Positions 1 to 33,442 of a stretch of DNA of 47,934 nt are shown here, in pieces; the first letter of the stretch is position 1, and the number at the start of each line of letters is the position of its first letter. This stretch comes from an uncultured bacterium (GTDB lineage: Bacteria > Bacillota > Clostridia > Oscillospirales > Oscillospiraceae). The stretch spans positions 1 to 47,934 of the forward strand of contig CANRXB010000019.1 of the NCBI GenBank assembly GCA_947643715.1, given 5' to 3'. A model generated the notes under the pieces. It saw nothing but the letters and a program-made list of their open reading frames with translations. It was not told the origin of the DNA and did not search any database. Position numbers and translations under genes: made by a program.

Positions 1-252
1 GTGGAGACCGCCCCCGTCCAAACAGCCGCTCCGGCGGTGGAGACCGCCCCCGTCCAAACAGCCGCTCCGGCGGTGGAAGCCGCCCCCGTCCAGGCAGCCG
101 CTCCGGCGGTGGAAGCCGCCCCCGTCCAAACAGCCGCCCCGGCGGTAGAGACTGCCCCCGTCCAAGCAGCCGCTCCGGCGGTGGAGACCGCACCCGTCCA
201 AACAGCCGCTCCGGCGGTAGAAACTGCACCTGTCCAAGCAGCCCCTCCGGTG
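1..252 (+). repeat. 36-bp in-frame tandem repeat, 7 copies
   Basis: Units start at 1, 37, 73, 109, 145, 181 and 217. The first two are identical; the others differ at a few positions, many synonymous (gtg/gta, gag/gaa). The length of 36 keeps the reading frame, so copy-number change would only lengthen the linker. The array touches the window edge and may continue to the left. Confidence 0.95.
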
Positions 253-591
253 GAGGAGACCGCCCCTCCCTCCCCTGTGCTGGAGGGTCCCGCTATATGG
301 AAGCAGCCGATCAAGCCTATCGATCCCGGCTATATCAACGTGATGCAGGTCCTCGTGGAAGAGAAGGCCCCGAAATATATCAAGATGTTCGGGCTATGCC
401 AGTGTGCCCGCTGTCTTGAGGACGTGAAGGCCCTTACCTTGAACCACCTCCCTTCCAAGTACGTGGTACTGGAGCAAGGGGATCTGATCCCCCGTCTGAC
501 GGTGTACGAGGGACAATTCAGCAGCGACGTCACGGCGCAGCTCCTCCAGGCTTGCAAGCTGGTCATGGAACGGCCCCATCACGGCCGCTGA
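1..591 (+). CDS. ComFB-domain protein with Ala/Pro/Val-rich repeat linker (5' end probably outside window)
   Basis: The frame is open at the left edge, so the GTG at base 1 may be an internal valine codon. Residues 1-84 are seven 12-residue repeats (TAPVQTAAPAVE type), a flexible linker. Residues 100-196 match the ComFB family: a helical start, then a CQCARC cysteine pair followed by LEDVKALTLNHLPSKYVV, the family signature. ComFB proteins were named for a Bacillus late-competence operon. Members have recently been reported to bind cyclic dinucleotides and influence motility; that is family knowledge, not shown here. The gene converges on the flagellar operon and shares its terminator. What lies N-terminal of the repeats is unseen. 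Confidence 0.8.
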   Translation: METAPVQTAAPAVETAPVQTAAPAVEAAPVQAAAPAVEAAPVQTAAPAVETAPVQAAAPAVETAPVQTAAPAVETAPVQAAPPVEETAPPSPVLEGPAIWKQPIKPIDPGYINVMQVLVEEKAPKYIKMFGLCQCARCLEDVKALTLNHLPSKYVVLEQGDLIPRLTVYEGQFSSDVTAQLLQACKLVMERPHHGR

Positions 592-612
592 TCGAGCACC
601 GGTACAGATATC

Positions 613-654
613 AAAGATCTCTGGCGGATGGATCGTCCGCCAGAGATCTTTTTT
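613..654. terminator. Bidirectional intrinsic terminator between ComFB gene and flagellar operon
   Basis: A perfect 16-bp inverted repeat (613-628 with 636-651) has a 7-nt loop, and the right arm runs into six T residues. It ends the plus-strand ComFB transcript. Read on the minus strand the stem ends in a shorter TTT, so it probably also ends the long flagellar operon, whose last stop codon is at 675. Confidence 0.9.
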
Positions 655-674: not shown

Positions 675-1973
675 TCAGCCCTCCGGCACCTCTTGGGCCA
701 TCTCTTCGGGGCTCTCGGGACGCTGCTGATATGGATTGGTGAGCTGTTCCCAAAGGGTGTTCACGTTCTCCATACAAATGAAGTAGATGCTGGTCATCAT
801 GTTGTCGGGGATGCGCAGCTCCTCCGCCAAAACGGTGATGCGCTCCCAGTCCGCAGATTCATAGCTGAGCACCAGGTCGTACAGCTTGCCGCAACGGCCC
901 TCGTGGGTGAGCAGGGCCGCCTTGATCTCATCGGCCACCGGAACCTCGGACAGGATCTCCTCCATGGGCGCATCGATGAGGTAGTTCAACGTGGAGAACA
1001 TCCCCATGAGGTAGGCTTCCGCCTTGGATATGGGCATATCATGGGCGTAGTTCATCAGCTCGCTACAGAAGTTGGCCCGCATGAACGAACGCTTCAAGAA
1101 CTCCTCCGAGCCGGGATCCGTCTCGTTCTCCGCGTTGCTGGCGCTGAGCAGATAGATCCACTGTTTGAGCTGCCCCAGGCCCAAAGTCATGATGGCCTGG
1201 GTGATGGTGGTCGCCCGGTGGCGCAGGGCGAAGTAAGCGGAGTTGACCATCTTCAGCAGACCATAGGACAGGCTGGCGTCCGCCGCGATCATCTGCTCGA
1301 CCTCTTCCACATTGGGCTCATCCCGGGTGACGGCCACCATGAGCTGGAAGAAATTGCTCTGGATGTAGGCGCTGCTGTGGGCCTGGGTGGTGAGCTTGTC
1401 GGCCACATAAGGGCCTTCCAGCCCGTCCGCCCCCAGCGCGACGGCCCGGTCGTAGACGCTCGCCGACTCGATATTCGTGACGATACACTTGATGTTCATG
1501 CTGTGGGCGATCTCCACCGTGTTGCGGATGGTGACGTCGGAGGCGGTCTTGGCGTTGATCTTGATGAACTGGATATCGTCCAGCAGAGCCAGGTATCGGG
1601 GCGTGAACTGGAAATCGTTCACCGCGATGCGATAGCCCTCCCTGCCGTACTGATGCACCAGGTGCATGGACAGGGGGTGGATGATCACCGCATCGTCGAT
1701 CTGGATGACCAGGTCGCTCTTGTCGAAGAGCCGGGGCGTCTTTTTCATCAGCAGCATGGTGGTGAACGTCATGAAATTCAGCGTTCCCTTCAACACCTTG
1801 GGGCTGTTCTGCGTCAAGAAGCTATAGATGGTATTGGCGGCGGCAAATTCCGCGCTGGAGGTGGAGCTGTCGCTGCTGAACGCCTGATTGGCCCCGTGGT
1901 ATAGGATCTCATGTCCGATGGTATTCCCCGCAGCGTCTCGAATGGGCTGCCGCACGATATATTTGCCGCTCAT
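675..1973 (-). CDS. Degenerate EAL + HDOD signalling protein (YuxH-like)
   Basis: The protein has 432 aa. Residues 1-190 follow the EAL phosphodiesterase fold, but catalytic signatures are lost: EAL reads EIL, the DDFG loop reads NDFQ, and the KID motif reads KIN. Residues 195-400 are an HDOD domain (KMVNSAYFALRHRATTI, then LGLGQLKQW). EAL-HDOD proteins of this type usually sense or scaffold rather than degrade c-di-GMP. The start follows AGGAGG by 5 nt. It is the last gene of the operon, 20 bp after cheV, which suggests a link between second-messenger state and chemotaxis. Inactivity is inferred from residues only. Confidence 0.85.
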   Translation of the reverse strand: MSGKYIVRQPIRDAAGNTIGHEILYHGANQAFSSDSSTSSAEFAAANTIYSFLTQNSPKVLKGTLNFMTFTTMLLMKKTPRLFDKSDLVIQIDDAVIIHPLSMHLVHQYGREGYRIAVNDFQFTPRYLALLDDIQFIKINAKTASDVTIRNTVEIAHSMNIKCIVTNIESASVYDRAVALGADGLEGPYVADKLTTQAHSSAYIQSNFFQLMVAVTRDEPNVEEVEQMIAADASLSYGLLKMVNSAYFALRHRATTITQAIMTLGLGQLKQWIYLLSASNAENETDPGSEEFLKRSFMRANFCSELMNYAHDMPISKAEAYLMGMFSTLNYLIDAPMEEILSEVPVADEIKAALLTHEGRCGKLYDLVLSYESADWERITVLAEELRIPDNMMTSIYFICMENVNTLWEQLTNPYQQRPESPEEMAQEVPEG

Positions 1974-1993: not shown

Positions 1994-2929
1994 TCAGGCC
2001 TTCTTGGCCTTCTTTTCCTGACGCATGAGGAGATGATCCATCACGTCCACGAGATGGCCGATCTCCGGCTTGGTCAGTTGCTCGTCCGCCCCCAATTCCC
2101 GGCCCTTGCGGCGCATCTCCTCACTGATGAGGGAAGAGAAGATGATCAGGGGGATGTGTTTGAACTTGGCGTTGTCCTTGACCAGCTTGGTCAGGCGGTG
2201 GCCGTCCATCTGGGGCATCTCGATGTCCGTGATGATCAAGGCCACGTTCTTCGTCAGTTCATCGTCCTGGGGCAGTTCCGACAGGGCCTCCCACAGCTCC
2301 AGCCCGTTGGAGAACATATGCAGGTTCATGTAGTTGGCGCGGCGCAGGGACTCTTCGATCATCTTGCTGAGCAGGACGGAGTCCTCCGCCACCCAGATGG
2401 GCTTGTCGTTGCGCTCCCGCGGGCCGAGCTGATCCACCTCGGACATCTGGATGGACGTCTCCGGGGCGATCTCGGCCACGATGCGCTCGAAGTCCAGGAT
2501 GGTGACCAACTCTCCGTCGCACTGCGCGATGCCGGTGGCCACGCTCTCCGCACCGCCGGAGACCGCTTTGTCCGGCTTCTGGATATCGATCCAGGAGATA
2601 CGGCTGATGCGGTCCACCGTGTGCACCCGGAAGGCGATGAACATCTTATTGAAGTTGGTGATGATGAAGATGTCCTTGGGGTCCTTCGGGCTCTCCACGC
2701 CCAGATACCTGGGCAGATCCACCACCGTGAGCACCGTGTCCCGGGGCTTGAAGATGCCCTCCACCGCCTCGTGGGCCATGGGCATGGGCTTCACCGGAGC
2801 GGAGATCATGATCTCCCGCACCTTGGCCACGTTGATGCCGAACAGGTTGCCGCCGATGGTGAATTTCATGATCTCGATCTCATTGGTGCCGGACTCCAGC
2901 AAGATGCCCTGCTTGTTGTCTTCCATCAT
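1994..2929 (-). CDS. cheV: CheV, CheW-like coupling protein with receiver domain
   Basis: The protein has 311 aa. Residues 15-155 are a CheW-like domain that docks to chemoreceptors and the kinase CheA. Residues 177-305 are a receiver domain with AEDS at the acidic pocket, the phospho-acceptor Asp235 in TDIEMPQMDG, and the conserved Lys in TKPE. CheV couples receptors to CheA and adapts when phosphorylated. The start has AAGGAG 8 nt upstream; a second Met follows directly. It lies 30 bp after cheD. CheA and CheW themselves are not in this window. Confidence 0.93.
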   Translation of the reverse strand: MMEDNKQGILLESGTNEIEIMKFTIGGNLFGINVAKVREIMISAPVKPMPMAHEAVEGIFKPRDTVLTVVDLPRYLGVESPKDPKDIFIITNFNKMFIAFRVHTVDRISRISWIDIQKPDKAVSGGAESVATGIAQCDGELVTILDFERIVAEIAPETSIQMSEVDQLGPRERNDKPIWVAEDSVLLSKMIEESLRRANYMNLHMFSNGLELWEALSELPQDDELTKNVALIITDIEMPQMDGHRLTKLVKDNAKFKHIPLIIFSSLISEEMRRKGRELGADEQLTKPEIGHLVDVMDHLLMRQEKKAKKA

Positions 2930-2959: not shown

Positions 2960-3442
2960 TCAAATGATCAGCTCTTGTCGACCGTAGCAGCGCACGCAGC
3001 CCAGACCGCTGTTCACGTCGAAAAGCAGGGTGCGGGCCACGGCCCCGCCCACATCCTCCTTCATCAAGCGGATGCCTTCCTTCCTCAGGTTCAGATGCAC
3101 GCTCTCGATGTTGCGTTGGCCGATGTTGCCCAGCGAGCCGCTCCCGCCGTCTTTGAACATCATGGCCCCGCCGGCGATCTTCGCGATGATCCTGGTGCGG
3201 CTGCCGCCCATGGCTTCTAACTGCTTCAAGGTCTCTCTGATCCCGGTATCTGCATATTTCATCGGGTGTTTGCGTCCCGTCTCCATATTCAGCGGCAGCA
3301 TGATATGCACCAGGGCCCCCAGCTTGAGGGCCGGATCGTGCAGGCAGATGCCGATGCACGAACCCAGCGCATAAGTGACCAACATGCCCTCCCCTTTGGC
3401 CAGCTTCATGTCCGCGATGCCGATGATCAGCTTCTCACTCAT
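2960..3442 (-). CDS. cheD: CheD, chemoreceptor glutamine deamidase
   Basis: The protein has 160 aa, normal for the family. The catalytic cysteine (Cys29 in GSCIGICLHD) and histidine (His46 in VHIMLP) of CheD are present. CheD deamidates receptor glutamines and is controlled by binding CheC. The gene overlaps the end of cheC by 8 bp, so the two are translationally coupled, fitting the known CheC-CheD complex. Confidence 0.95.
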   Translation of the reverse strand: MSEKLIIGIADMKLAKGEGMLVTYALGSCIGICLHDPALKLGALVHIMLPLNMETGRKHPMKYADTGIRETLKQLEAMGGSRTRIIAKIAGGAMMFKDGGSGSLGNIGQRNIESVHLNLRKEGIRLMKEDVGGAVARTLLFDVNSGLGCVRCYGRQELII

Positions 3443-4061
3443 CCCTCACGCCCAGCTTCCGTAACAAAGCGTTCAGAGACCGGAGGTCAGGCGACATCAG
3501 CAGGCGGCAGGGGACCTGCTTGTTCTCGCTCACGAAGTTGCCCCCGATGGTCATGATATAGTCGGATTGGCCGCCGTATTCCGCCATGGGCACGGCCAAG
3601 ATGGCCCCTTGCATGTCTACCGTGAACGCGGGCACCGTCAGCTTCACGTCCATGCCGGCAAGGCCGCTCAGGGCGTTGATGAACGTGGAGATCATGATGT
3701 TGCCCACCTCTACCAGAGCGGAATTCTCCAGCTCGGTCAGTTGGCTGTAGTCCGTGACCCGCTGGGACAGCATGCTCTCCAGCACGATGTTGACGAACTC
3801 CAACGGCTGCACCGACAGCATGATGCCGTTGACTTGGCCGCTGAGCTTCACCAGCACGCCGGCCGTGATCTCTTCCGGGCCACCGATCCACTCGATGGCC
3901 TCATTATAGCCCATGATCCGCACCTCGGGCAGCGTGATCCGCACCTGCCTGCCCAGCATCTGCGACAGGGCGGTGGCGGCGTTGCCGGTGCCGACGCTAC
4001 CGATCTCCCGGAGCGTGTCCAACTCCAGGGAGTTCAGCTCGTCGTAGTTTTTGATGGCCAT
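3435..4061 (-). CDS. cheC: CheC, CheY-P phosphatase
   Basis: The protein has 208 aa with two copies of the CheC phosphatase signature: REIGSVGTGNAATALS near residues 18-33, and ENSALVEVGNIMIS later. CheC hydrolyses CheY-P and, when bound to CheD, sequesters it. AGGAGG precedes the ATG by about 9 nt. A 181-bp gap separates it from flgG upstream, the largest gap in the operon. Confidence 0.94.
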   Translation of the reverse strand: MAIKNYDELNSLELDTLREIGSVGTGNAATALSQMLGRQVRITLPEVRIMGYNEAIEWIGGPEEITAGVLVKLSGQVNGIMLSVQPLEFVNIVLESMLSQRVTDYSQLTELENSALVEVGNIMISTFINALSGLAGMDVKLTVPAFTVDMQGAILAVPMAEYGGQSDYIMTIGGNFVSENKQVPCRLLMSPDLRSLNALLRKLGVRDE

Positions 4062-4242: not shown

Positions 4243-4986
4243 TCAGGTACGCAGGTTGTTGATGGTGCTCTCGATCTCGTCGGATGTGATCACCATCTTC
4301 AACGCCATGCCGTAGGCCCGCTGGGATTCGATCACCTTGGAGTACTCCTCCGCGAGATCGGCGTTGGAGCCCTCCAGCAGTCCTTGCCGCAGGGTGCCGG
4401 TGCCGTACCACAGGTTCCCGTTCTTGTCGACGGGCAGATACCGGGTGTCGTCCAACTGGGTCATGCCGTCGTAGTTGGGATAATCGTAGATGCCGATCGG
4501 GAGCTTCTCCTTGGGATCGTCCACCTGGATGAGCCCGCCGGTGTCGCTGAGCACGAAACGCCCCGTGCCGTCCCCCAGGCAGAACACTTTCTCCATGACG
4601 GGCTGGCCCGCCTCATCCATCTCGCCGGTGGCCCGCTCCAGCTCCGACATGGAGAACGCGCCGTTGCGGGTATAGGTCACCTGGCCCGTAGCCAGATCCA
4701 CCAGGGCGAAGAACCCCTGGCCGTCGATCATATAATCCAGGCTCCTGCCGTTGTCCACCACAGGACCCTGAGAGAAATCGGTAGAGGTCTTCAGCAGCCG
4801 GGCGCCCACGCCCATGGGCAGCTCTTCGTCGATGCCCCTGTGGTCCTGATACATCAGCGCGGTGAAATAGGAGCGGTCCGCCTTGAAGCCGAAGGTGTTC
4901 AGATTGGCGATGTTGTCGCTGTGGACGTTCAGCCGCCGGAGCTGCTGCTGGGCGCCTACCGCGCCGATATAGAAAGATTGGTTCAT
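4243..4986 (-). CDS. flgG: Flagellar rod/hook-basal body protein FlgG-like (FlhP)
   Basis: The protein has 247 aa. The N-terminus has the rod-protein signature, with residues NSDNIANLNTFGFK-like in register (seen as VHSDNIANLNTFGFKADR). The C-terminus has the matching amphipathic helix (LLEGSNADLAEEYSKVIESQ). These two helices pack in the axial rod. It is paired with the similar gene at 5001-5750, as flhO/flhP are in Bacillus. Assignment to G rather than F rests on order and is less certain than membership in the family. Confidence 0.85.
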   Translation of the reverse strand: MNQSFYIGAVGAQQQLRRLNVHSDNIANLNTFGFKADRSYFTALMYQDHRGIDEELPMGVGARLLKTSTDFSQGPVVDNGRSLDYMIDGQGFFALVDLATGQVTYTRNGAFSMSELERATGEMDEAGQPVMEKVFCLGDGTGRFVLSDTGGLIQVDDPKEKLPIGIYDYPNYDGMTQLDDTRYLPVDKNGNLWYGTGTLRQGLLEGSNADLAEEYSKVIESQRAYGMALKMVITSDEIESTINNLRT

Positions 4987-5000
4987 ATCTCCTCACCCCA

Positions 5001-5750
5001 TCACATCCGGCCGATATCGCTGGCGGAATGGCCCATCAGCTCATCGTACATCTTGCTCACCGAGGCCGCGCTCTGGAAGGCCCGCTGGCTGGTGAGCATC
5101 TCGGTCATCTGACGGATCATGTCCACGTTGGAGCGCTCCACGTACTTCCACAGGACGGTGGGACGATCTATGGCTTCCGCCCCCTCCCCGGTGAAGAAGC
5201 CCTGATCGTCGTGCTCCAGCTGCTCCAGGTCCTCGAAGCCGTACACCCCAAGCTGGCCCAGCAGTCCGCCGTTCTCAGCGTAGATGTTCCCCTGGTCGTC
5301 CACGTCCAGCTTGTCGGTGGACAGCAGGATGGTCTCGCCCTCGCTGTCCAGCACGCGGCCCACGCCCGGGAAGCAGAGATAACCCTCTTCATCCAGAGAG
5401 AAGCTGCCCGACCGCGTGTAGACGGTGTCGCCCCCCTCCTGCTGGATGGCGAAGAAGCCGTCGCCGATGATGGCGAAGTCCAGCGGGATATTGGTGGGCT
5501 CGGGGATGCCCTGGTCAAAGGTGACATGGATCTCACTGTTGGCCCGGATATAGCTCTGCCGGCCGATGTCGGTGTATTCCTTCTCCTTGTTGCCCACCCG
5601 TGTGTACATCACATCGTCGAAGGTGCTGGCGATATACCGGCTCTCTTTGAAACCAGCGGTGGAGATATTCACCATGTTGTTGCCCACCACGTTCAGGTTG
5701 CGCTGGTGTGTCACCATACTGGAGGTGAGGTTGTAGAAGCCTTTGAACAT
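5001..5750 (-). CDS. flgF: Flagellar rod/hook-basal body protein FlgF-like (FlhO)
   Basis: The protein has 249 aa with the flagellar rod N-terminal motif (NLNVVGNNMVNISTAGFKES) and the C-terminal motif (VERSNVDMIRQMTEMLTSQR). The middle resembles the FlgE/F/G shared domain (DFAIIGDGFFAIQ, YTRSGSFSLDEEGYL). It is exported by the flagellar type III system and builds the rod. It sits 6 bp after the sigma-28 gene and 14 bp before its paralogue. The F/G labels could be exchanged. Confidence 0.85.
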   Translation of the reverse strand: MFKGFYNLTSSMVTHQRNLNVVGNNMVNISTAGFKESRYIASTFDDVMYTRVGNKEKEYTDIGRQSYIRANSEIHVTFDQGIPEPTNIPLDFAIIGDGFFAIQQEGGDTVYTRSGSFSLDEEGYLCFPGVGRVLDSEGETILLSTDKLDVDDQGNIYAENGGLLGQLGVYGFEDLEQLEHDDQGFFTGEGAEAIDRPTVLWKYVERSNVDMIRQMTEMLTSQRAFQSAASVSKMYDELMGHSASDIGRM

Positions 5751-5756: not shown

Positions 5757-6599
5757 TCATGCCTTCTTCCGCTTTTTAGAGGTTTTTTGAGGTGTCTCGC
5801 TGTTCATATAGGAACCCATGAATTCCCGCAGCTTCTGGATGGCCCGGGAGTGGATCTGGGAGATGCGCGGCTCGCTCACTCCCATCACCTGGGCGATCTC
5901 TTTCATATGCAGGTTCTTCTCGTAATAGAGCGACAGCACGATCTGCTCGTTCTTCTGGAGGGAAGCGATGCCCTGCGCCAAGGTCTGCTGGAGCTCCTGA
6001 TCCTCCAGCACCGTCTCGGGCTGGATCTTCGGGTCCTCGGAGGACACTTCGAAGCGGTATCCCTCCATGTCCCGGGCGTCCATCAGCGCGTCCAGGGACA
6101 GGGTGTTGCTCAAGGCCACCCGGGCGGCCTCCTTCTGATATTTGTCGGTGGGGATCCCCAGATGGCTGGCCACCTCGTGGTCGGTGGGGAAACGCCCCAG
6201 CTCGTTGGCCAGGCTGGACACTGCGGCGTCGATCTCCTTGGCCCGCTGCCGGATGTTCCTGGGCAGCCAGTCCTGCTTGCGGGCCAGGTCGATGACCATC
6301 CCCCGGATGCGTTTGGACACGTAGGTCTCGAACTTGATCCCCTTGTCCGGGTCGAACTTGTCGATGGCGCTGAGCAGAGTGAGGATGCCTTCGCTCACGA
6401 TGTCGTCCACCTGAGCGAAGCTGCTGTACACACCCCGGATCTGGAGGGCCGCGCTCTTGATCAGCCCTTCGTACCGCAGCACCAGCGGCCACTTCAGCTC
6501 CTCGTCCCCCGTACGCTTATATGCCGCCAGCAGGTCGGCGGTGCTCATGGCTTCGATCTCCTCCGGCGTGTATCGCTGTTGGACGGCGCCGGCGCTCAT
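5757..6599 (-). CDS. fliA: RNA polymerase sigma-28 factor (FliA/SigD)
   Basis: The protein has 280 aa. Region 2 is clear (DDIVSEGILTLLSAIDKFDP, then FETYVSKRIRGMVIDLAR), followed by the FliA/WhiG-type DWLPRNIRQRAKEI. Region 4 ends with a helix-turn-helix (MKEIAQVMGVSEPRISQIHS). It directs late flagellar and chemotaxis promoters. It overlaps flhA in an ATGA junction. Encoding sigma-28 inside the hook-basal body operon matches Bacillus sigD. FlgM, its anti-sigma factor, is not in the window. Confidence 0.95.
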   Translation of the reverse strand: MSAGAVQQRYTPEEIEAMSTADLLAAYKRTGDEELKWPLVLRYEGLIKSAALQIRGVYSSFAQVDDIVSEGILTLLSAIDKFDPDKGIKFETYVSKRIRGMVIDLARKQDWLPRNIRQRAKEIDAAVSSLANELGRFPTDHEVASHLGIPTDKYQKEAARVALSNTLSLDALMDARDMEGYRFEVSSEDPKIQPETVLEDQELQQTLAQGIASLQKNEQIVLSLYYEKNLHMKEIAQVMGVSEPRISQIHSRAIQKLREFMGSYMNSETPQKTSKKRKKA

Positions 6600-8704
6600 G
6601 TGCCCACCGCCCTTCGCTCGGCCCGGACCGGCATGTCGGCCGTGATGTTGCCCAGGGCCTGGATCTGCACGGTGTTGGTGATCTCATTGAAGGAGAGCAC
6701 GTAGACGTTGGGGTAGAACTGGGTGATCATCCGGCTGAAATAGCCCCGGATCACCTGGCTGACCAGGATGACCGGCGTCTGGGACAGGTCGCCGAACTTC
6801 TTCAGATGCTCCGCGAGCTGGGAGATGATGGTCTGCATCAGGTCGGGGCCCATGGCCAGATACACGCCCTGCTCGTTGCGGGTGAGGGAGGAGATGATCT
6901 TCTTCTCCACCTCAGCGTCCAGGGTGATGACCCGGAGCTGCCCGTCCTCGCAGAAGCGGCGGGTGATGGTGCGGGCCAATGCGCCGCGCACCTGTTCGGT
7001 GGTCATCTCCAGGTCCCGGCCCTGGGCCATGGCGTCGGCGGCGGTCTCCACGATGGTGCTCAGGTCCTTGATGGGCACGCCTTCCTGGAGGAGATTGCGC
7101 AGCAGCTTCTCCAGCTTGGCATAGGGGATGATGCCGGGCACCGCCTCCTCCACCAGCTCGGGGGAGGTCTGCTTCAGGTTCTCCACCAGACGGATGGTCT
7201 CCGCCCGGTTCAGCAACTCGTAGGCGTGCTTCTTCACCGTCTCCGCCAAGTGGGTGAGCATGACGGACAGCGGATCGATGACGTTGTAGCCGTAGATCTC
7301 CGCCATCTCCTTGTTCTCCGGCAGGATCCACCGGGAAGGGATGCCGTAGGCTGGTTCGATGGTCTCGATGCCGTCGATCTCCCCCAACGGATTGGGGGGC
7401 TCCAGGGCCAGGTAGTAGTCCACCAGGATCTCGCCCTGGGCCACCACCTCGCCCTTGATGCGGATGGCGTATTGGTTCGTGCCCAGCGCGGAGGAATCGT
7501 GGAGGCGGATGGATGGGATGACGAAGCCCATGTCCTGGGCATACTGCCGCCGGAAGATGGTGATGCGGCTGATGAGCTTGCCGCCGTGGCTCTCGTCCAC
7601 CATGGGGATGAGGCTGTAGCCGAACTCCATCTCCACCGGCTCCACCGACAGCAGGGTGTATACGTTGTTGATATCTCGGTAATAATCGCTCTCAGTGGGC
7701 GCCGTTGCCTCGGGGGGCTCAGCGGCGGCGGCCTGGGCCTCCGCTGCCTCCGCCTGGCGCTGGGCGCTGAGCTGACGGGTGATGAAGAACCCTCCGCCCA
7801 CCAGCGCCGCGCCGCCAAAGAACAGCGGGATCGTGGGCGTGCCCGGGATGACGGCCAGGAACAGCAGGATCACGCCGGTGGTCATGATGGCCCTGGGCTG
7901 GGACTTGAACTGGGACACCACGTCCATGTTCAGGCTGCCGTCGGACACGGAACGGGTGACGATCATGCCCGTAGCGGTGGAGATCATCAGGGATGGGATC
8001 TGAGACACCAGACCGTCGCCGATGGTGAGGATGCAGTACTGGCTCATCACGTCGCCGATGCTGCCGCCCTTGACCACCATGCCGATGATGATGCCGCCCA
8101 CCAGGTTGATGATGGTGATGATGATGGACATGGTGGAGTCGCCTTTGACGATCTTGGTGGCGCCGTCCATAGCGCCATAGAAATCGGCCTCTTTCTGGAT
8201 CTTCTCACGGCGGGTCCTGGCCTGCTGCTCGTCGATGAGGCCGGAGGACAGGTCCGCGTCGATGGCCATCTGCTTACCGGGCATCGCGTCCAGGGTGAAG
8301 CGGGCAGCCACCTCGGACACACGCTCCGCGCCCTTGGTGATGACGATGAGCTGCACCAGCACGATGATGAAGAAGATCACGAAGCCCACCACGATGTCAC
8401 CCTGGGTGATGAGCTGTCCGAAGTTCCGGATGACCACGCCGGGGTCGCCGGTGGTGAGGATCATCCGGGTACTGGACACGTTCATGCCCAACCGGAACAA
8501 GGTCGTGATGAGCAGCAGGGAGGGGAAGATAGAGAAGTCCAACGCCTCCGAGATGTTCATGGTGATCATCAGGATCATGATGGACAATCCGATGTTCACC
8601 ACCAGGAGGACGTCCAGGATCGCAGGGTCCAGTGGGATGAACAGGAACATGACCACGACCACCACGAACAGCGCTATGGCATTGTCCAAAATGCGTTTGA
8701 GCAT
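6596..8704 (-). CDS. flhA: FlhA, flagellar export gate protein
   Basis: The protein has 702 aa. The N-terminal ~320 residues hold multiple membrane segments and the FHIPEP signature (ERVSEVAARFTLDAMPGKQ). The C-terminal cytoplasmic part is the ring that receives export chaperones. AGGAGGT lies 8 nt before the ATG. In many Clostridia and Bacillus flhF and flhG follow flhA; here fliA follows directly with an overlap. Confidence 0.97.
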   Translation of the reverse strand: MLKRILDNAIALFVVVVVMFLFIPLDPAILDVLLVVNIGLSIMILMITMNISEALDFSIFPSLLLITTLFRLGMNVSSTRMILTTGDPGVVIRNFGQLITQGDIVVGFVIFFIIVLVQLIVITKGAERVSEVAARFTLDAMPGKQMAIDADLSSGLIDEQQARTRREKIQKEADFYGAMDGATKIVKGDSTMSIIITIINLVGGIIIGMVVKGGSIGDVMSQYCILTIGDGLVSQIPSLMISTATGMIVTRSVSDGSLNMDVVSQFKSQPRAIMTTGVILLFLAVIPGTPTIPLFFGGAALVGGGFFITRQLSAQRQAEAAEAQAAAAEPPEATAPTESDYYRDINNVYTLLSVEPVEMEFGYSLIPMVDESHGGKLISRITIFRRQYAQDMGFVIPSIRLHDSSALGTNQYAIRIKGEVVAQGEILVDYYLALEPPNPLGEIDGIETIEPAYGIPSRWILPENKEMAEIYGYNVIDPLSVMLTHLAETVKKHAYELLNRAETIRLVENLKQTSPELVEEAVPGIIPYAKLEKLLRNLLQEGVPIKDLSTIVETAADAMAQGRDLEMTTEQVRGALARTITRRFCEDGQLRVITLDAEVEKKIISSLTRNEQGVYLAMGPDLMQTIISQLAEHLKKFGDLSQTPVILVSQVIRGYFSRMITQFYPNVYVLSFNEITNTVQIQALGNITADMPVRAERRAVGT

Positions 8705-9807: not shown

Positions 9808-9890
9808 CGTCCATCCCCCCCTGGCCTCTCATGCGTATGTTCTCCTTCCGCGAGAAGGGCGGGGGAAAGCATCCTAGGAACGTTTTGTTG

Positions 9891-9916: not shown

Positions 9917-9918
9917 GA

Positions 9919-23744: not shown

Positions 23745-24831
23745 TGATATCGTCCTTTCCGCCCTTCGCTATGATGATCTCGTTCTTCTCCTCCAGGTCG
23801 CGGATGATGTCCACGATACGCTGTTGGGCGTCCTCCACGTCCTTCATGCGGACATTGGTGGTGATCTCCAGGTCGTCGCGGATGTTCTGGGCCATACGGG
23901 TGGACATGTTGCTGAGCAGCTTCTTGGACACGTCCTCGTTCGCCGCCTTGAGGGCCAGCACCAGGTCCCTGGGGTCGCAGTCGCGGACGAAACGCTGGAC
24001 GGAGCGGTCGTCCATGGTCATGATGTCCTCGAACACGAACATGCGCTTGCGGATCTCGTCGGCCAGCTCCTGGTCGTAAGCGGACAGGCCGTCGAAGATG
24101 TTCTTCTCGCTGGTGCGGTCCAGGTTGTTCATCACGTCGGCCACATAGTCGATACCGCCCACCTTCACGTTGGCATTGGTGACAATGCTGGAGAACTTCT
24201 TGCGCATCTCCGCCTCGATGATCTTGACGGCCACGGGAGAGACGCTCTCGATCTTGGCCATGCTCTCCACCACCTGGACCTGACGCTTCTCGTCCAACCG
24301 GGCGATGACGCCGGCGGCCTTGTCCGCGTCCACATAGGACAGCACCAGGGAGATGGTCTGGGGACGCTCGTTCTGCAGCGCGGAGAACAAAGAAGTCTCG
24401 TCTGCCTTCTCCATGAAGGAGAAGCTGCGGTTCTGCAGGGACTTGGTCACCTTGCCCAGCAACTCGTCGGCGGTCTGCGCGCCGTATGCCTTCTCCAGCA
24501 CGGTGCGGGCATACTCCAGCCCGCCTTCGGTGACCGCCCGGTTGGTGCGGCAGAGCTGATAGAATTCGTATAAGATCTCTTCGGTCTGCTCTGAGTCCAG
24601 GAAGCCCAGCTTCGCCACCTCTAGGGTGAGCTGCTCCACGTCCTCTGGGTCCATATGCTTGTATAGCGCGGAGGCACGCTCCACTCCCAGAGCGATGATG
24701 ACGGTAGCGGCACGCTGGGCGCCGGTGAGGTCGCTCTCGATCTCCAGGCCGCCTGAGCGCCTGGCCCTGGGGGCACTGCTGGCTCCGGCGGCGGGCGCCG
24801 CTTTCTGCTCAGCCACAGGAGCGTCAGCCAT
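23737..24831 (-). CDS. fliG: FliG, flagellar motor switch protein
   Basis: The protein has 364 aa from ATG 24831, preferred because AAGGAGG lies 9 nt upstream; it directly abuts the earlier ATG at 24840. After an Ala-rich start, it has the FliG N, middle (VLSYVDADKAAGVIARLDEK) and C domains. The C domain bears the charged torque helix (DDRSVQRFVRDCDPRDLVLA). It links the MS ring to the C ring and contacts MotA. It overlaps fliF by 8 bp. Confidence 0.96.
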   Translation of the reverse strand: MADAPVAEQKAAPAAGASSAPRARRSGGLEIESDLTGAQRAATVIIALGVERASALYKHMDPEDVEQLTLEVAKLGFLDSEQTEEILYEFYQLCRTNRAVTEGGLEYARTVLEKAYGAQTADELLGKVTKSLQNRSFSFMEKADETSLFSALQNERPQTISLVLSYVDADKAAGVIARLDEKRQVQVVESMAKIESVSPVAVKIIEAEMRKKFSSIVTNANVKVGGIDYVADVMNNLDRTSEKNIFDGLSAYDQELADEIRKRMFVFEDIMTMDDRSVQRFVRDCDPRDLVLALKAANEDVSKKLLSNMSTRMAQNIRDDLEITTNVRMKDVEDAQQRIVDIIRDLEEKNEIIIAKGGKDDIIA

Positions 24832-26524: not shown

Positions 26525-26570
26525 GTTCAACTACCATCGACCCCGCTCTCCGCGTTCTTTCCTGCGCCGA

Positions 26571-26930
26571 TCAGACGCCCATGTTCTTCAATTCATTGTA
26601 CGCCTCCAGCGCCCGGTTGCGCATCTGGATCAACAGATCCGCCGCGAGCTCGGCCTTGTAGCCGGCGATGCCGACCTGGACCGGATTGTCCAATTGGCCG
26701 GTGGCCAGGAGATACTGCGCCTGTGTGAATTCTGCGTCGGTGTCCCTCACGTTCTGGATCAGGGAGCCGAACAGAGAACCGAAAGAACTGTCTTTGATGC
26801 TGTCCAGTGCGACGGCGCTCTCCTCTTCCTGACCGAGCTGGACCGGAGGCGCGATCTTCTGGATGGTGTCGGTGATCCCGGTGATGCCGGCGTTGGCGGC
26901 GATCCCGGTGATGCCCTGTACGGTGCTCAT
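26571..26930 (-). CDS. fliE: FliE, MS-ring/rod junction protein
   Basis: The protein has 119 aa. The C-terminal half carries the FliE signature (FGSLFGSLIQNVRDTDAEFTQ, in parts, then GIAGYKAELAADLLIQMRNRALEAYNEL). It joins the rod to the MS ring and is an early export substrate. It lies between flgC and fliF, the conserved order. GGAGAGG is the ribosome site. Confidence 0.94.
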   Translation of the reverse strand: MSTVQGITGIAANAGITGITDTIQKIAPPVQLGQEEESAVALDSIKDSSFGSLFGSLIQNVRDTDAEFTQAQYLLATGQLDNPVQVGIAGYKAELAADLLIQMRNRALEAYNELKNMGV

Positions 26931-26964
26931 AGCCTATCCTCTCCTTATGCAGTCTTGCGGCCCG

Positions 26965-27432
26965 TCACCTGCCGATCTCCAGCCCGCTGGAGATGACGGA
27001 TTTCAGTGTGTTGAACGCGGTGACGTTGGATGCGAACGCCCGGGTGGCGGCCATGGCGTCGGCGATCTCCTTCACCATGTCCACGTTGGGCATCTCGAGA
27101 TAGCCGTCCTCGTCCGCGTCCGGATGGGTGGGATCGTAGGCGATCTTCATGGGGGATTCGTCCTCCACGATCTGGGTGACGCGCACGCCGCCGCCGGTGG
27201 GGCTCGTCACGGTGTTGGGGATGAGGCCGTTGGCCGCCTTGGCCAGAGCGGCGCGGAAGGAGTCCCGGCCGCTCACCGCCTCGAACACCACCATCTTGCG
27301 GCGGTAAGCGCCCTCGCCGTTCTCTACGCGGGTGGTCTGGGAGTTGGTCACGTTCTCCGACACGATGTCCAGACGGAGCTGCTGAGCGGTGAGGCCCGAG
27401 CCGATGATGTTGATGGAATTCATGAAGCTCAT
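26965..27432 (-). CDS. flgC: FlgC, proximal rod protein
   Basis: The protein has 155 aa. It has the rod N-terminal motif (LTAQQLRLDIVSENVTNSQT) and the C-terminal helix (EMPNVDMVKEIADAMAATRA). It forms the proximal rod with FlgB and FlgF. GGAGG lies 10 nt before the ATG. It starts 18 bp after flgB. Confidence 0.96.
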   Translation of the reverse strand: MSFMNSINIIGSGLTAQQLRLDIVSENVTNSQTTRVENGEGAYRRKMVVFEAVSGRDSFRAALAKAANGLIPNTVTSPTGGGVRVTQIVEDESPMKIAYDPTHPDADEDGYLEMPNVDMVKEIADAMAATRAFASNVTAFNTLKSVISSGLEIGR

Positions 27433-27450
27433 GATCTATGTACCTCCGTC

Positions 27451-27840
27451 TTATTGTCCCTTGATGGCCATCCGAAGGATGGAGAAATGCTTGTTGACGG
27501 CGCTGTAGACGTATTGCTGCTGGTAGGCGTTGCGGATCATCTCCACCATCTGGTCGGTGACGTTCACGCCGTTGTCGTCCATGCGGGTCTGCTCCTGGGC
27601 CTCGAACACGGTGAGCTCGGAGCCATCGAGCACTTCACGCACGGCCTTCCCCGCGCCCTCGGGCCGGCTGGCGGCCTGCTCGAGCTGCGTGCGGATGCTG
27701 TCCTCGAACGTGACGACCTTGGCCTTGTACTCCGGGGTCTCGGCGTTGGCGATGTTGTCCAGGATGGCCGCCTGCTTGGTCCACAGGAACCCCATAGACT
27801 TTTCCATCAAGAGCATGGAATTGCTGGTCAAGAAATCCAC
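27451..27840 (-). CDS. flgB: FlgB, proximal rod protein; first gene of the flagellar operon
   Basis: The protein has 129 aa. The motif MLLMEKSMGFLWTKQAAILDNIANAETPEYK (in parts) is typical of FlgB, as is the late NGVNVTDQMVEMIRNAYQQQ. The start is the GTG at 27840, because GGAGGG lies 6 nt upstream; the TTG at 27846 touches the ribosome site. A promoter and leader hairpin lie just upstream, making this the head of the operon. Confidence 0.95.
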   Translation of the reverse strand: MDFLTSNSMLLMEKSMGFLWTKQAAILDNIANAETPEYKAKVVTFEDSIRTQLEQAASRPEGAGKAVREVLDGSELTVFEAQEQTRMDDNGVNVTDQMVEMIRNAYQQQYVYSAVNKHFSILRMAIKGQ

Positions 27841-27865
27841 ATCCAACCCTCCTAAGGATCTGCTG

Positions 27866-28299: not shown

Positions 28300-30855
28300 T
28301 CACTCGATATATTTCGCCAGCAGCCGCATGACCTCCCGCACGTCGATCGGCTTGGCGATATGGGCGTTCATGCCACAATCCAGGCTGCGCCTGACGTCCT
28401 CGGCGAACGCGTCGGCGGTCATGGCGATGATGGGCAGGCCGTTGTCCTCCCGCTCCATGGCACGGATGACCTGCGTGGCCTCGTACCCCCCCATCACGGG
28501 CATCCTGATGTCCATGAGCACGGCGTCATAATATCCCACCGGGGAGTCCTGGAACATCTCGGCGCAGATCTGCCCGTTCTCCGCCCAGTCCAGCTCCAGC
28601 CCCTCCTCGCCCAGCAGCTCGGCGGCGATCTCCCAGTTGAGCTCGTTGTCCTCAGCCAGCAGGATGCGCCGGCCTGTGAGATCCCGGCCCTTCTCCATCA
28701 CCACCGGGGCCTCCTTCAGCTCCGGCGCCCCAGCGAACTGCCGCAGGGAGTTGAACAGGGTCGATTTGAACAGAGGCTTGGCGATGAAGCCGGTGATGCC
28801 CGCGTCCCGGGCGTCATGCTCGATCTCCGCCCAGTCGTAAGCAGAGATGAGCAGGATGGGGACGTCGCCCCCCATCTCCTGCCGGATGTGCCGGGCGGTG
28901 GCGATGCCGTCCATGTCGGGCAGCTTCCAGTCCAGCAGGATGATCTGGTAATCGTCCCCCCGCTTGTGCCTCTGGGCCACCATCGACACGGCGTGCGCGC
29001 CGTCCAGGGCCCACTCAGCGGTGATGCCGATGGAGGCCAGCGCCCTGACCGTGGTCTCGCAGAGCTGGCGGTCGTCGTCCACCACCAGCATGTTCCAGTT
29101 GGGCAGCACCATGTCCTCTTCCATCACCTGGGCCTTTTCCAGATCCAGCGTGATATTGAACTCCGCTCCCTTGCCCGGATGGCTCACCACGTCGATGGAG
29201 CCGCCCATGGCGTCCACGATGAACTTGGTGATGGCCATGCCCAGGCCGGTGCCCTCGGTGCGGTGGACCCGTGCGCTGTCCTCCCGGGCGAAGGAGTCGA
29301 AGATGTGCTTCTGGAACTCCGTAGACATACCGATGCCGTTGTCCTTCACCTGGACATGGATGCGCACATAGTCCTCCCCTTTAGGGGACTCCTCCTCATA
29401 CAGCGCCATGTGGATCTCCCCGCCCTCGGGGGTGAACTTGATGGCGTTGGACAGCAAGTTGAGCAGCACTTGGTTGAGCCGCACACTGTCGCACACTACG
29501 TTCTCGGTAGAGATGTCGTGGATGAACACGTCGAACTGCTGCCCCTTGGCTTTCACCTGGGGCTGGCAGATGCTGACGATGCCCTCCACCACCTCCTGCA
29601 AGGACACCTGATCCATGCTCAGGGTCATCTTGCCGCTCTCGATCTTGGACATGTCCAGCACGTCGTTGATGAGCCCCAGCAGGTGCTTGCTGGACATGGC
29701 GATCTTCTTCAGGCAGTTCTGCACCTGCCGGGTATCCTCGATGTTGGCGGTGGCGATGGCGGTCATACCCACGATGGCGTTCATCGGGGTGCGGATGTCG
29801 TGGCTCATGTTGGACAGGAACTCGCTCTTGGCCCGGTTGGCGTGCTCAGCCTCCCTGCGTGCCTCGTCCAGCTCCCGGAACTGCTTGCGGGTGATCTCGA
29901 AGTACTTCGCGAACACCAGCAGCAGCGCGGAGAGGACCATGACCACGCTGAGCACCGTCAGCCCGCCCCACTCCCGGATGAAATCGGTTATGGTCGTGTC
30001 GATGGAGCCATAGGGCATGAAGGTGAGCAGATACCACTCGGTATAGGGCAGATGGGTGCAGTACAGATGATACCGCTCGCCCCCCATGGTGAACTCATTG
30101 GAATAATCCTCGTCCTTCGCCATCGCGGCGGCGAGGTCTTGGAGGTACTGCTCCGGCGTCATGCCGTTCACGTCCTCATAGATGGCCCTGACCCGCTCGA
30201 AATAGCTGTGGCGGTAGGCGTCGGCGTTGCGGATGACGAAGGTCCCGTCCTGCCGGATGATGAAGGAATAGGCCCGCTCATTGTTCTCTTCCAGAGAGAG
30301 GTTGTCCTTGATATAAGAAACAGGCAGGCCGGCCACCAGCGCCACACAGGACCGCTCGCCGTCTGCGGGATGGGCGGTGGGCATCCCCAGCAGGATCACC
30401 TTCTCCCCCGCCGGATCGTCTGCCCTCGTCGCCACGGCCACCTTCTTGTCCCCCCCGCGCAGGGAGGCGAGGAAAGGGCCTGGATCGACCACCGTCAGCT
30501 CGTCGCCATAGATCACATCGAAGTCGCCGTCCGCGTCGTAGAACGCCAGATATCCAAAGTCCCGGGCCTCGGCGCTGTCCACGATCCCTCTCATGAGCTG
30601 CGCGTCGTCATGGATCCGTCCCGTCTCGATGGTGTCGGCCAGCGCCTCCAACTGGTCCAGGCGTAGGCCGATGACGGACTCGAAATGAGAAGATGTCTGC
30701 TGGCTCATCCTGGACATGTAGAGCGTCCCCACCTCGTTGATGGCCTCGGCGCTCCGGGTGCTCATATGGACCGCGAAAAAGGAGAATACGCATACGCAAA
30801 GCAGGGCCACCCCGATCAAGCTCGCGATCAGGAACTGGGTGGTCTTGTTCTTCAT
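28300..30855 (-). CDS. CACHE-type hybrid sensor histidine kinase with two receiver domains
   Basis: The protein has 851 aa from ATG 30855, chosen because AGGAAGG lies upstream and because it makes an ATGA overlap with the HPt gene. Membrane helices at 7-29 and 298-316 enclose a ~265-residue extracellular double-CACHE-like sensor. HisKA follows with His352 ([13 protein letters not shown]), then HATPase_c ([15 protein letters not shown]), receiver 1 (Asp642 in [11 protein letters not shown]) and receiver 2 (Asp782 in [11 protein letters not shown]). The ligand is unknown. The stand-alone HPt next door suggests a multistep relay. Confidence 0.94.
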
Positions 30856-31220
30856 CCTGCAGCACCTTCCTGGAACGCCTGGATGGCCTGGATGACGCGC
30901 CGGTAATCCTCCTCCACCTGCCCGATCAGCTCTTCCTCGCCCGGCTGGGGGGGGGCGCCGTCCCGCAGCGCCTCGGTGAGCCGCTCGCTGGACGCCAGCA
31001 GCGGCCCGAAAGCCAGGTTCGCACACACGCCCTTGATGGTATGGGCCGCACGGAACGCCTCCCCCCGGTCCCCCGACTCCAGTGAGCGGCGCAGCAGGTC
31101 GAAGCTGCCGTCGCCGGGGAACTTCAGCACGAACTTCTGCACCAGCCGCTCGCTGCGCAGCCGGCCCATCACCTCGTCATAATCGCCGCCCATGGCGGCG
31201 TAGCATTCTTTCAGCGTCAT
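30852..31220 (-). CDS. HPt phosphotransfer protein
   Basis: The protein has 122 aa. His60 in [14 protein letters not shown] is the phospho-acceptor of an HPt domain; the rest is helical. It overlaps the hybrid kinase by 4 bp and follows the HD-GYP/GGDEF gene by 14 bp. The likely role is to carry phosphate from the kinase's receiver domain to the receiver of the HD-GYP/GGDEF protein. That route is inferred from gene order. Confidence 0.92.
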
Positions 31221-31234
31221 GTCCGCTCCTCCTC

Positions 31235-33442
31235 TTACCGTGTCTGGCTGGCAGCGCTCTCCCCGTCGATGGGAGACACCGCCGAGATGACCTCGTCCAT
31301 GGGGACGGCCTCTTTTCGATAATAGCTGTAATGGCCCTTACCGTTGTTCTTCACCACATAGAGCGCCTGGTCCGCACAGCGGAACAGCGCGTCATAATCG
31401 AGCCCCACCGATGCAGCCGCAGCCACGCCCATGCTCACGGAGATGGCGAATTCCTCGTAACTGCCGCCGGCCAGCCGGCCGTAGATCCCGTCGATGATGG
31501 GCTCCAGATCCCCCTTGTACTCCAGGAAGATGAGGAACTCGTCCCCGCCCACCCGGGCGGCGATGTCCCCGCCCCGGATGCTGCGCCGCATCCGCTCGGC
31601 GATGAACTTCAGCACCTGATCGCCGAACATATGGCCATATGTATCGTTGGCGGACTTGAAATAGTCCAGGTCCAGGATGGCCAGGGCATAATCGCTCTCG
31701 GGCCGGTCCTCCAGCCGCTCTATGATCCGTTTCTTGGCATAAGCGTGGTTGAGCAGCCCCGTGAGGGCGTCGTGGGACGCCTGGCGCTCCAAGTTCTCCA
31801 GTTGGAGGCGGGAGCAGTGGATATCCAGCGCCTTACCGATACAGCCGGTGTAGCGGGGCGGCTCCTCGGAGGACCACGAGGCCCGGGCGATGATCTGGTG
31901 CCACCGCTCCTCCCCGTTCACCCGCAGCTTGCACTCGTACTGCACCACCGGGTTGCCCGGGGTGGTGCTGTGCAGGGCGTCGGCCAGCTCGGCCTGTTCG
32001 GTGGCGCCGATGATGGCCTGGGCCTGAACGTCCTGATAAGGGTCCATGAGGGTCTCGGGCAGGCCCAGCTTCTCCGACCCCCAGGTGCTCAGCACCAGCG
32101 AGGGCGGAGTGACGGTGTATTCGAATTGGATCTCCTCGGTGAGCGAGGCGAAGAAGCTGTACTTCATGCGCTCGTGCTCCAGAAGCTCCAGGGTGCGCTC
32201 GGAAGCGGTGAGCTCCTCGTGCTTGTGCAGCTCCCTGGCGATGTTCTGCATCTCCCGATGGCTCTGGCGCAGCCCGTCGTCGTGGCTGAGCTCCTCGGGG
32301 ATGGCCGGGGCGCTGTCCCGCAGGCACTCCAGCACCAGGGGATTGAACTCGCCGCACTCCCCCCGGAGGATCATATCCACCGCCTGCTCATGGGTGAAGG
32401 CGGGCTTGTATACCCGCTCGCTGGTGAGCGCGTCGTACACGTCGGCCAGCGCCACCATCTGGGCCGAGATGGGGATCTCGTCGCCCTTGAGCCCGTCCGG
32501 ATAGCCCCGGCCGTCCCACCGCTCATGGTGCCAGCGGCAGATCTCATAGGCGGCCTTCATCAGCGGCTCGTCCTGATAGGCGGGCAGGTCCTTGAGCATC
32601 TCCGCCCCGATCTTGGAGTGGTCCTTCATGATGGCGAACTCTTCCTCGGTGAAACGCCCCGGCTTGTTGAGGATCTCCTCGGGGATCGCGATCTTCCCCA
32701 CGTCGTGCAGGGCGGAGGCGGTGCTGATGACGGAGATGTCCGTCTGGCTCAGGTGGTAGCGGTCCGTCTTCTGGACGAGGGTCTTGAGCAGCAGCTCCGT
32801 CAGGGTGTGTACATGGCGCACATGGAGGCCGCTCTCGCCGTTGCGGAACTCCACGATATGGCTGAGTATGTCGATCATCAGGCTGCTGCGCCGTTCCTTC
32901 TCGTAGATCTGCTCGGCCACCAGCGCGGTGAGCTTCTTCTGCTTGGCATACAGCAGGATCGTGTTCACCACCCGGCGGTGGACGATGAGCGCGTCGAAAG
33001 GCCGGCTGATGAAATCGGTGATGCCCATCTCGAAGGCCCGCTCGATGTGGGTGGAGCCCCGCTCCGCCGAGATCATGATGACAGGGATATCGTCGATCCA
33101 GTGATACCGGTTCATCATGGTGAGCACGCCGAACCCGTCCATCTCCGGCATGACGATGTCCAACAGCACCAGCGAGATGTCCGTACTGTGCTTTTGCAGC
33201 ATGGACACGGCCTCATTGCCGTTCTCCGCCTCGAGGATGTCGTATTCGTTCCCCAACATATCTGCAAGGATGGCCCGGTTCATCTCCGAGTCGTCCACGA
33301 TCAGGACCCTTTGTTTGTCAGCGATCCTCTCCAAAGCATCCATCTCCTTCTCGTTCTTTTTGAACGCCGCCCCCAGCGCCGGATCGATCCCGATGCCGGA
33401 CGGGGCCGGGCCGCGGCTCGGCCCATATGCTTCGATATCCAT
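31235..33442 (-). CDS. REC-HD-GYP-PAS-like-GGDEF response regulator (c-di-GMP enzyme)
   Basis: The protein has 735 aa. Residues 45-160 are a receiver (Asp95 in LLDIVMPEMDG). Residues 185-370 are an HD-GYP phosphodiesterase with HD at 246-247, HHE at 305-307 and GYP at 313-315. About 430-560 looks PAS-like. The C-terminal GGDEF cyclase has an intact GGDEF at 632-636 and an RGGD inhibitory site five residues before it. Both making and breaking c-di-GMP is therefore possible. A -10 box lies only 9 nt before this ATG, so a later start such as ATG 33343 is possible. Confidence 0.92.
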   Translation of the reverse strand: MDIEAYGPSRGPAPSGIGIDPALGAAFKKNEKEMDALERIADKQRVLIVDDSEMNRAILADMLGNEYDILEAENGNEAVSMLQKHSTDISLVLLDIVMPEMDGFGVLTMMNRYHWIDDIPVIMISAERGSTHIERAFEMGITDFISRPFDALIVHRRVVNTILLYAKQKKLTALVAEQIYEKERRSSLMIDILSHIVEFRNGESGLHVRHVHTLTELLLKTLVQKTDRYHLSQTDISVISTASALHDVGKIAIPEEILNKPGRFTEEEFAIMKDHSKIGAEMLKDLPAYQDEPLMKAAYEICRWHHERWDGRGYPDGLKGDEIPISAQMVALADVYDALTSERVYKPAFTHEQAVDMILRGECGEFNPLVLECLRDSAPAIPEELSHDDGLRQSHREMQNIARELHKHEELTASERTLELLEHERMKYSFFASLTEEIQFEYTVTPPSLVLSTWGSEKLGLPETLMDPYQDVQAQAIIGATEQAELADALHSTTPGNPVVQYECKLRVNGEERWHQIIARASWSSEEPPRYTGCIGKALDIHCSRLQLENLERQASHDALTGLLNHAYAKKRIIERLEDRPESDYALAILDLDYFKSANDTYGHMFGDQVLKFIAERMRRSIRGGDIAARVGGDEFLIFLEYKGDLEPIIDGIYGRLAGGSYEEFAISVSMGVAAAASVGLDYDALFRCADQALYVVKNNGKGHYSYYRKEAVPMDEVISAVSPIDGESAASQTR

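Follow-up and report, generated by a model that had tools for sequence, protein, structure and literature searches.

A parA-comFB operon adjoins the flagellar and chemotaxis genes

The stretch of DNA analyzed here (hereinafter, the window) is the entire 47,934-nucleotide contig CANRXB010000019.1 (C19) of an uncultured bacterium of the family Oscillospiraceae, whose genome assembly (GCA_947643715.1) consists of 2.63 Mb in 93 contigs. It carries a flagellar and chemotaxis (fla/che) operon that, according to Pfam and further profile matches, occupies the minus strand, starting at 27846 with flgB and ending at 675 with the gene for a degenerate EAL-HDOD protein. Converging on the latter is comFB, the main subject of this work, which encodes a ComFB-domain protein with a long acidic linker in front of the domain (hereinafter, linker-type ComFB). 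We found that linker-type ComFB is encoded by the second gene of a parA-comFB operon located between fliD-fliS and the fla/che operon. The ParA gene was missed in a preliminary description of the window because it lies off this contig; its presence in front of comFB shifts the reading of ComFB from a cyclic di-GMP (c-di-GMP) reader to a partner of a ParA ATPase.

Contig C19 starts inside comFB, within a repeat, and therefore the N-terminal part of the gene and the preceding gene lie outside the window, at the end of contig C17. The C17 piece of comFB, which begins with MAKDNKTSKTARVMNLLSKK, breaks off in the same repeat that opens C19, and the two pieces are not joined; the break in the assembly was probably caused by this repeat. 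The ParA gene (C17:49394-50203), located 330 bp before the contig end and followed by the start of comFB, encodes a protein 88% identical to that of locus L104 (loci and genomes of relatives are denoted by L and G numbers, respectively), and the adjacency of the two genes in this genome is supported by the gene order in relatives.

As claimed in the preliminary description, both a degenerate EAL-HDOD protein and a convergent ComFB are found at the downstream end of the fla/che operon, and this arrangement is conserved: among the EAL-HDOD loci examined (the best 80 of the 150 found with a profile, many with Oscillospiraceae names, such as Oscillibacter, Lawsonibacter and Flavonifractor), comFB converges on the EAL-HDOD gene within 3 kb in 50 loci and at 3.2-3.9 kb in 3, and none was found in the other 27, including 7 in which less than 330 bp of contig remains. 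Leaving aside four of the 50 loci that are cut by a contig end (L115, L122, L131, L147) and two with ambiguous bases (L119, L133), there are 44 with a full-length comFB. In all 44, an open reading frame (ORF) upstream of comFB ends at most 94 bp before the comFB start or overlaps it by one base, and in all 44, a ParA match with 57-100% identity is found at this spot, as it is in L119 and L133 as well. Five of these ParA proteins, including the one from the genome of the window, match PF13614 at 1e-49 to 1e-53 (L104: 1.4e-53), and for the L127 protein, ParA and Soj chains rank highest among the related solved structures. No sigma-28-type promoter was detected in the 180 bp before comFB in the 44 stretches; this DNA is occupied by parA.

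In the loci read, the linkage is confined to the long form of ComFB. In the family sample (150 genomes, completeness of at least 80), 39 ComFB loci were read, 20 long and 19 unextended. ParA lies upstream in 18 of the 20 long-ComFB loci, the other two loci being truncated, either where the fetched DNA stops or at a contig end (in one of these, G105, the match coordinates place ParA directly upstream of ComFB), and beside none of the 19 unextended ones, among which we placed G142 (235-residue frame) and G086 (144), with neither N-terminal motif in the upstream part; if G142 is counted as extended, the ParA tally would read 18/19. In the class sample (243 genomes), the extended ComFBs from other families (G357, G288 and G251) all carry the motif and ParA (3/3). 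No ParA was found beside ten unextended ComFBs hand-chosen from the class listing, including G219, which has a long frame consisting of ComFB and then masked bases, without ParA, and was counted as unextended. The family, class and 44-locus sets overlap in some genomes. In G058, ParA is about 320 bp upstream of comFB, farther than in the others. The carriers with names include Oscillibacter valericigenes An907, Pygmaiobacter massiliensis and Angelakisella massiliensis.

Divergent from the parA gene on C17 are a FliD-like gene and then a FliS-like gene (both named by eye). When these genes served as queries, fliD was detected in 65 of the 70 ParA loci, always on the strand opposite to parA: in 62 of them it is no more than 3 kb away, and in three, which belong to the second ParA class described below, the distance is about 8 kb. 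The other 5 loci gave no fliD match. The place of fliD and fliS and the order of parA and comFB therefore define the unit fliS-fliD / parA-comFB / EAL-HDOD-cheV-cheD-cheC-fla.

Linker-type ComFB has a conserved basic N-terminus

The ComFB domain encoded in the window matches PF10719 with 60.7 bits (cut-off 25), and those of three relatives, with 55.7-62.2 bits; in three linker-type proteins searched against Pfam, ComFB was the only domain matched. An alignment of 33 proteins shows no variation at M1, K9 and T10 or at the predicted zinc ligands C158, C160, C163 (CxCxxC) and H219; according to PMC4381287, this ligand set is the same as in Bacillus subtilis ComFB. The ORF in the window keeps CxCxxC and the final His. 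The N-terminal motif, in a loose form, fits all 59 long ComFBs, a set in which some genomes were fetched twice and the start codons were picked with this motif in view, and a further motif, predicted to be helical, fits 41 of the 59 by the pattern used. The median net charge is +4 for the first 22 residues and -18 for the linker, compared with -3 for 17 unextended ComFBs. AlphaFold2 predicted a helix at residues 9-18 (low confidence), another at 47-65 and a confident ComFB domain (about 90 or more), and a Foldseek search with the ComFB model retrieved B. subtilis ComFB (4wai; 5.7e-5) and Synechocystis CdgR with c-di-GMP (8hja).

ParA partners are described as touching the ATPase via a charged, disordered N-terminus, with the remainder binding cargo (PMC10241942), and an N-terminal arginine finger is described for ParB (PMC9178275). 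Linker-type ComFB combines a basic, predicted disordered N-terminus with a gene next to parA, the two features by which such a partner can be recognized. The linker of the ComFB from G005 (L065) contains GKLSQDEIERMLRAM, which, by eye, resembles the FliM/FliY motif described below for FliY.

Synechocystis ComFB binds cyclic di-AMP (c-di-AMP) with a dissociation constant of 2.6 uM and c-di-GMP with one of 1.7 uM (PMC12313861), and in Anabaena, CdgR acts through titration by c-di-GMP (PMC13075795). Linker-type ComFBs retain the N, D-A-L and Y positions that are common to CdgR.

Two matched classes of ParA and ComFB

Among 71 ParA sequences, including the Soj protein encoded in the genome of the window, KGGVGKTT was found in 68, DxDPQG in 69 and IID[TC]PP in 60, the first two counts being partly a matter of construction because the 71 were chosen with looser forms of both motifs. 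The linked ATPase is of the ParA type (deviant Walker A motif) and is nearer to ParA/Soj than to MinD; the L104 protein scores 104.6 bits against NCBIfam ParA_partition, below the cut-off of 180.

Five family genomes (G003, G148, G104, G023 and G040) encode ComFBs with a second type of N-terminal motif, that of KKELDKDLMFSKIMPAL (looser in G040). The ParA proteins of this second class are 34-42% identical to the common type, and the Soj of the genome of the window is 31-40% identical to either. Judging by the alignments and a ParA tree, which is rough, with bootstrap not settled and two very long branches, the ParA clade and the ComFB N-terminus change together, as expected of a matched pair, in a single split. 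A search of the 150 family genomes for the ParA linked to comFB (E up to 1e-65) yielded 16, each of which also has a long ComFB and FliG. G040 and G114 belong to the same genus but are different species, and their ParA-ComFB classes differ, which suggests replacement of one class by the other.

ComFB, EAL-HDOD and FlhF across flagellated genomes

In the family sample, FliG was detected in 38 genomes, and all genomes with ComFB (31), EAL-HDOD (33) or PilZ (30) are among these. In the class sample, 100 genomes were considered flagellated based on FliG (106 if six matches with E above 1e-7, excluded as MgtE-like and none of them from a ComFB genome, are included), and all 80 genomes with ComFB belong to this set. 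FliG, ComFB, PilZ, EAL-HDOD and the linked ParA were all absent from two other species of the genus to which the window belongs. Unextended ComFBs (about 85-130 amino acids) are likewise confined to flagellates in the family and class samples, and those read have no adjoining ParA.

The EAL domain at the end of the operon is degenerate: in a profile alignment with the MorA EAL domain (4rni), DDF is replaced by NEF, AEGVE by VTEID and QG by EG, and the first Asp of DDF is lost in 13 of 13 aligned sequences. By these substitutions, the EAL-HDOD protein lacks the catalytic residues expected of an active EAL phosphodiesterase. Its structure model was poor (mean predicted local distance difference test score 63) and was not used.

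FlhF exceeded the cut-off in 7 of the 150 family genomes, all flagellated. It was found in none of the 21 parA-comFB genomes versus 7 of the 17 other flagellates (Fisher p 0.0015) or, by genus, in 0 of 16 versus 5 of 13 (p 0.011), in tests that treat genomes or genera as independent. In the genome of the window, the best FlhF match scores 81 bits (cut-off 174), and there is no flhF or flhG between flhA and the sigma factor gene. These observations suggest that parA-comFB may stand in for FlhF/FlhG.

The upstream phosphorelay is a separate cassette

At the opposite end of the fla/che operon, on the same strand as flgB and about 450 bp upstream of it, are the genes for a hybrid kinase, an HPt protein and a REC-HD-GYP-GGDEF response regulator. 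The preliminary description proposed that these genes, together with ComFB and EAL-HDOD, form a c-di-GMP circuit bracketing the operon. The domains and gene order that it reported are borne out by Pfam and inspection of motifs, and the phosphorelay is complete, with phospho-acceptor stretches and the HD, GYP and RxxD-x5-GGDEF motifs intact in the translations as examined by eye; the dCache_1 match of the kinase is below the cut-off (35.1 vs 45 bits). A scan for promoters and terminators between flgB and the kinase gene was empty, with a chance expectation of about 0.5 each.

The flgB flank was taken from 17 relatives; in 15 of them, it extends at least 8 kb upstream, and in the other two, only about 0.6 and 1.2 kb. 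The response regulator was found upstream of flgB in none of the 17, and the phosphorelay lies beside flgB in none of the 15; only G114 has both kinase and HPt matches in this flank, weak, short and 8.5-10 kb away. In the family sample, the response regulator (E up to 1e-80) is found in 19 genomes with FliG and 20 without. Among its 11 best-scoring relatives from other genomes, it adjoins HPt in all 11 and the kinase in 8, and two of the 11 (G060 and G125) have no FliG match. The phosphorelay is a separate conserved cassette that is not tied to flagella. Only half of the proposed circuit is supported: ComFB and EAL-HDOD track flagella and their convergence is widespread, whereas the inclusion of the phosphorelay is not supported, and the bracketing circuit was rejected because the cassette is located elsewhere in relatives.

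In L072 (G028), L073 (G058) and L088 (G049), there is a PilZ match less than 1 kb upstream of flgB, the place occupied by the phosphorelay in the window; in other relatives, PilZ is several kb from flgB or elsewhere.

Other features of the window

The features of the window are collected in Table 1. Of the 44 relatives with full-length comFB, 24 were examined, and in 23 of these, the gap between comFB and EAL-HDOD contains a stem of at least 10 pairs (some of the gaps are long, and there was no control with shuffled sequences). The interval 27451..27846 has no Pfam match at 1e-5 and was named flgB from its place and from matches in relatives. FliY (12520-14010, minus strand) contains a linker with three xMSQxxIExML motifs, which resemble repeats of the CheY-binding motif from the FliM N-terminus. 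Just past the response regulator is a gene for a MoxR-type AAA ATPase (33714-34652, plus strand), and farther along, there is a pair of genes for a BlaR1-type M56 peptidase and a penicillinase-repressor-type protein (39508-43079, minus strand).

Table 1. Features of the window, with coordinates on C19
Feature	Coordinates	Strand	Evidence or remark
comFB, 3' part: acidic Pro/Ala/Val/Gln-repeat linker and ComFB domain (ORF residues 113-192)	1..591	+	PF10719, 60.7 bits
Terminator-like hairpin (18 pairs) flanked by an A run and a T run	612..652		Between comFB and the fla/che operon
Degenerate EAL-HDOD, final gene of the fla/che operon	675..1973	-	PF00563, 36.5 bits; PF08668, 71.6 bits
CheV-type CheW-REC	1994..2929	-	Pfam
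CheD	2960..3442	-	Pfam
CheC	3435..4061	-	Pfam
Two rod/hook-family (FlgF/FlgG-type) genes	4243..5750	-	Profile matches
Sigma-70-family factor, FliA-type by place	5757..6599	-	Profile match
FlhA	6596..8704	-	Profile match
flhB, fliR, fliQ, fliP, fliO	8737..12063	-	Profile matches
cheY, fliY, fliM, motB, motA	12069..16790	-	Pfam/profile matches
flgE-type gene, TIGR02530 gene, flgD, fliK, fliJ, fliI, fliH, fliG, fliF, fliE, flgC, flgB	17242..27846	-	Profile matches; flgB by place and matches in relatives
Hybrid histidine kinase: HisKA, HATPase, two REC	28300..30861	-	Pfam
HPt protein	30852..31220	-	Pfam
REC-HD-GYP-GGDEF response regulator	31235..33526	-	Pfam

A putative positioning system and the alternatives

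The interpretation that we favor, with a confidence slightly above even, is that a dedicated ParA ATPase has linker-type ComFB as its partner, and that parA-comFB is a system for positioning, or controlling the number of, the flagellar or chemosensory machinery, in which the adaptor reads c-di-GMP. Under this model, ATP-bound ParA dimers would sit on the nucleoid as a matrix, and the basic N-terminal motif of ComFB (MAKDNKTSKTARVMNLLSKK in the genome of the window) would dock on ParA and trigger ATP hydrolysis, in the manner of the N-termini of ParB-like partners. The long acidic linker would reach across to the ComFB domain, which, by homology, is predicted to be a zinc-bound dimer with a site for a cyclic dinucleotide (c-di-NMP). 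This domain would hold a flagellar or chemotaxis cargo, and c-di-GMP would release it or alter the grip. We entertain only tentatively a broader proposal, namely, that this is a c-di-GMP-gated ParA machine, with a receptor domain as the cargo-binding end of the ParA partner, that takes the place of FlhF/FlhG in Oscillospiraceae and some other Clostridia and controls flagella or chemoreceptor arrays in space or in number, such that the second messenger sets cell architecture, beyond motor speed or gene expression.

Several observations weigh against this interpretation. The T-E-x-G stretch that is common to unextended ComFBs and CdgR is lost in many linker-type ComFBs, so that nucleotide binding by the latter may be altered or lost; this stretch is also missing from B. 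subtilis ComFB. The N-terminus is not uniformly basic: the net charge of the first 22 residues is 0 in G357, from another family, and just +1 to +2 in the second class. The Spo0J of the genome of the window begins with MNPMAKAKGLGKGLDALMG, and the likeness of this pattern to the ComFB N-terminal motif is by eye alone. Outside the samples, the control genome of Synechococcus elongatus has ComFB and no FliG match. ComFB is lacking within 3 kb in 30 of the 80 EAL-HDOD loci, Flavonifractor loci included, and 23 of these have enough contig to show it. Finally, FlhF and parA-comFB are both absent from 10 of the 38 flagellates (G030, which is among these 10, shows a weaker FlhF-like match of 98.7 bits), so that both are dispensable for flagella, and the mutual exclusion of the two may reflect descent.

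An unlikely, albeit serious, alternative is that ComFB is a c-di-GMP-reading flagellar brake or regulator, akin to PilZ/YcgR or MotI, with ParA as an accessory that places it. Several ComFBs reportedly bind c-di-GMP, and overexpression of comFB combined with high c-di-GMP is said to suppress motility in B. subtilis. This possibility fits the restriction to flagellates, in the samples, of unextended ComFBs, of which those read have no adjoining ParA, but it does not account for the pairing of linker-type ComFB with ParA wherever the DNA is readable, nor for the additional conserved basic N-terminus. Moreover, the two types of ComFB coexist in nine family genomes (G005, G023, G027, G046, G061, G104, G105, G119 and G148), as expected if their jobs differ. 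We consider it very improbable that a single circuit operates in which the upstream phosphorelay sets the c-di-GMP level that ComFB and EAL-HDOD read. A single contig does encode all the domains, their motifs are intact, and the response regulator could synthesize or degrade c-di-GMP, but the cassette is missing beside flgB in the 15 relatives with at least 8 kb read, the regulator is about as frequent in non-flagellates as in flagellates, and the genome encodes five more GGDEF matches that could set c-di-GMP. Least credible of all is that parA-comFB is a BcsQ-like pair involved in polysaccharide or envelope export that merely happens to be located near flagellar genes. The ParA of this genome does match Pfam CBP_BcsQ (59.6 bits, cut-off 21.3), and the L104 protein scores nearly the same against NCBIfam BcsQ (100.6 bits, cut-off 157.85) as against ParA_partition, in both cases below the cut-off; yet, within the samples, parA-comFB is present in flagellates alone and among flagellar genes (bcs genes were not searched for).

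ParA/MinD ATPases are responsible for positioning chromosomes, carboxysomes, flagella and chemotaxis arrays, and many of them are regarded as orphans with unknown partners (PMC10241942). Here, an ATPase was found together with its likely partner, whose fold is that of a cyclic-dinucleotide receptor; both are encoded among the flagellar genes of gut bacteria. A cyclic-dinucleotide signal may thus determine the placement or the number of flagella or sensor arrays. If the positioning model holds, there would be a direct route from c-di-GMP to the spatial organization of the motility machine, linker-type ComFB would gain a concrete, testable role, and the ability of some Oscillospiraceae flagellates to manage without FlhF may be explained.

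Comparison with known systems

With the known ParA/MinD positioning systems (ParAB, McdAB, PpfA-TlpT, ParC-ParP, FlhG), parA-comFB shares a Soj/ParA-type ATPase with KGGVGKTT and a neighboring gene for the putative partner, located near the genes for the supposed cargo; in this partner, a basic, disordered N-terminus is followed by a distinct C-terminal domain. It differs in that the partner domain is ComFB, a c-di-NMP-receptor fold, and in that FlhF does not exceed the cut-off in carriers. The ComFB fold, with the same zinc ligands as in B. subtilis, is shared with the ComFB/CdgR receptors of Synechocystis, Nostoc and B. subtilis, and the context is motility-related in both cases, with pili there and flagella here; unlike those receptors, linker-type ComFB is preceded by a long acidic linker and a basic N-terminal motif and is paired with ParA. 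FlhF-FlhG similarly includes a ParA/MinD-class ATPase encoded beside flagellar genes and does not co-occur with parA-comFB in the sample, whereas here FlhF is missing, the ATPase is closer to ParA/Soj than to MinD, and ComFB is the putative partner. The EAL-HDOD protein shares the order of EAL followed by HDOD with its known counterparts, of the YuxH or CdgJ type, but the catalytic EAL residues are gone and its gene ends a fla/che operon.

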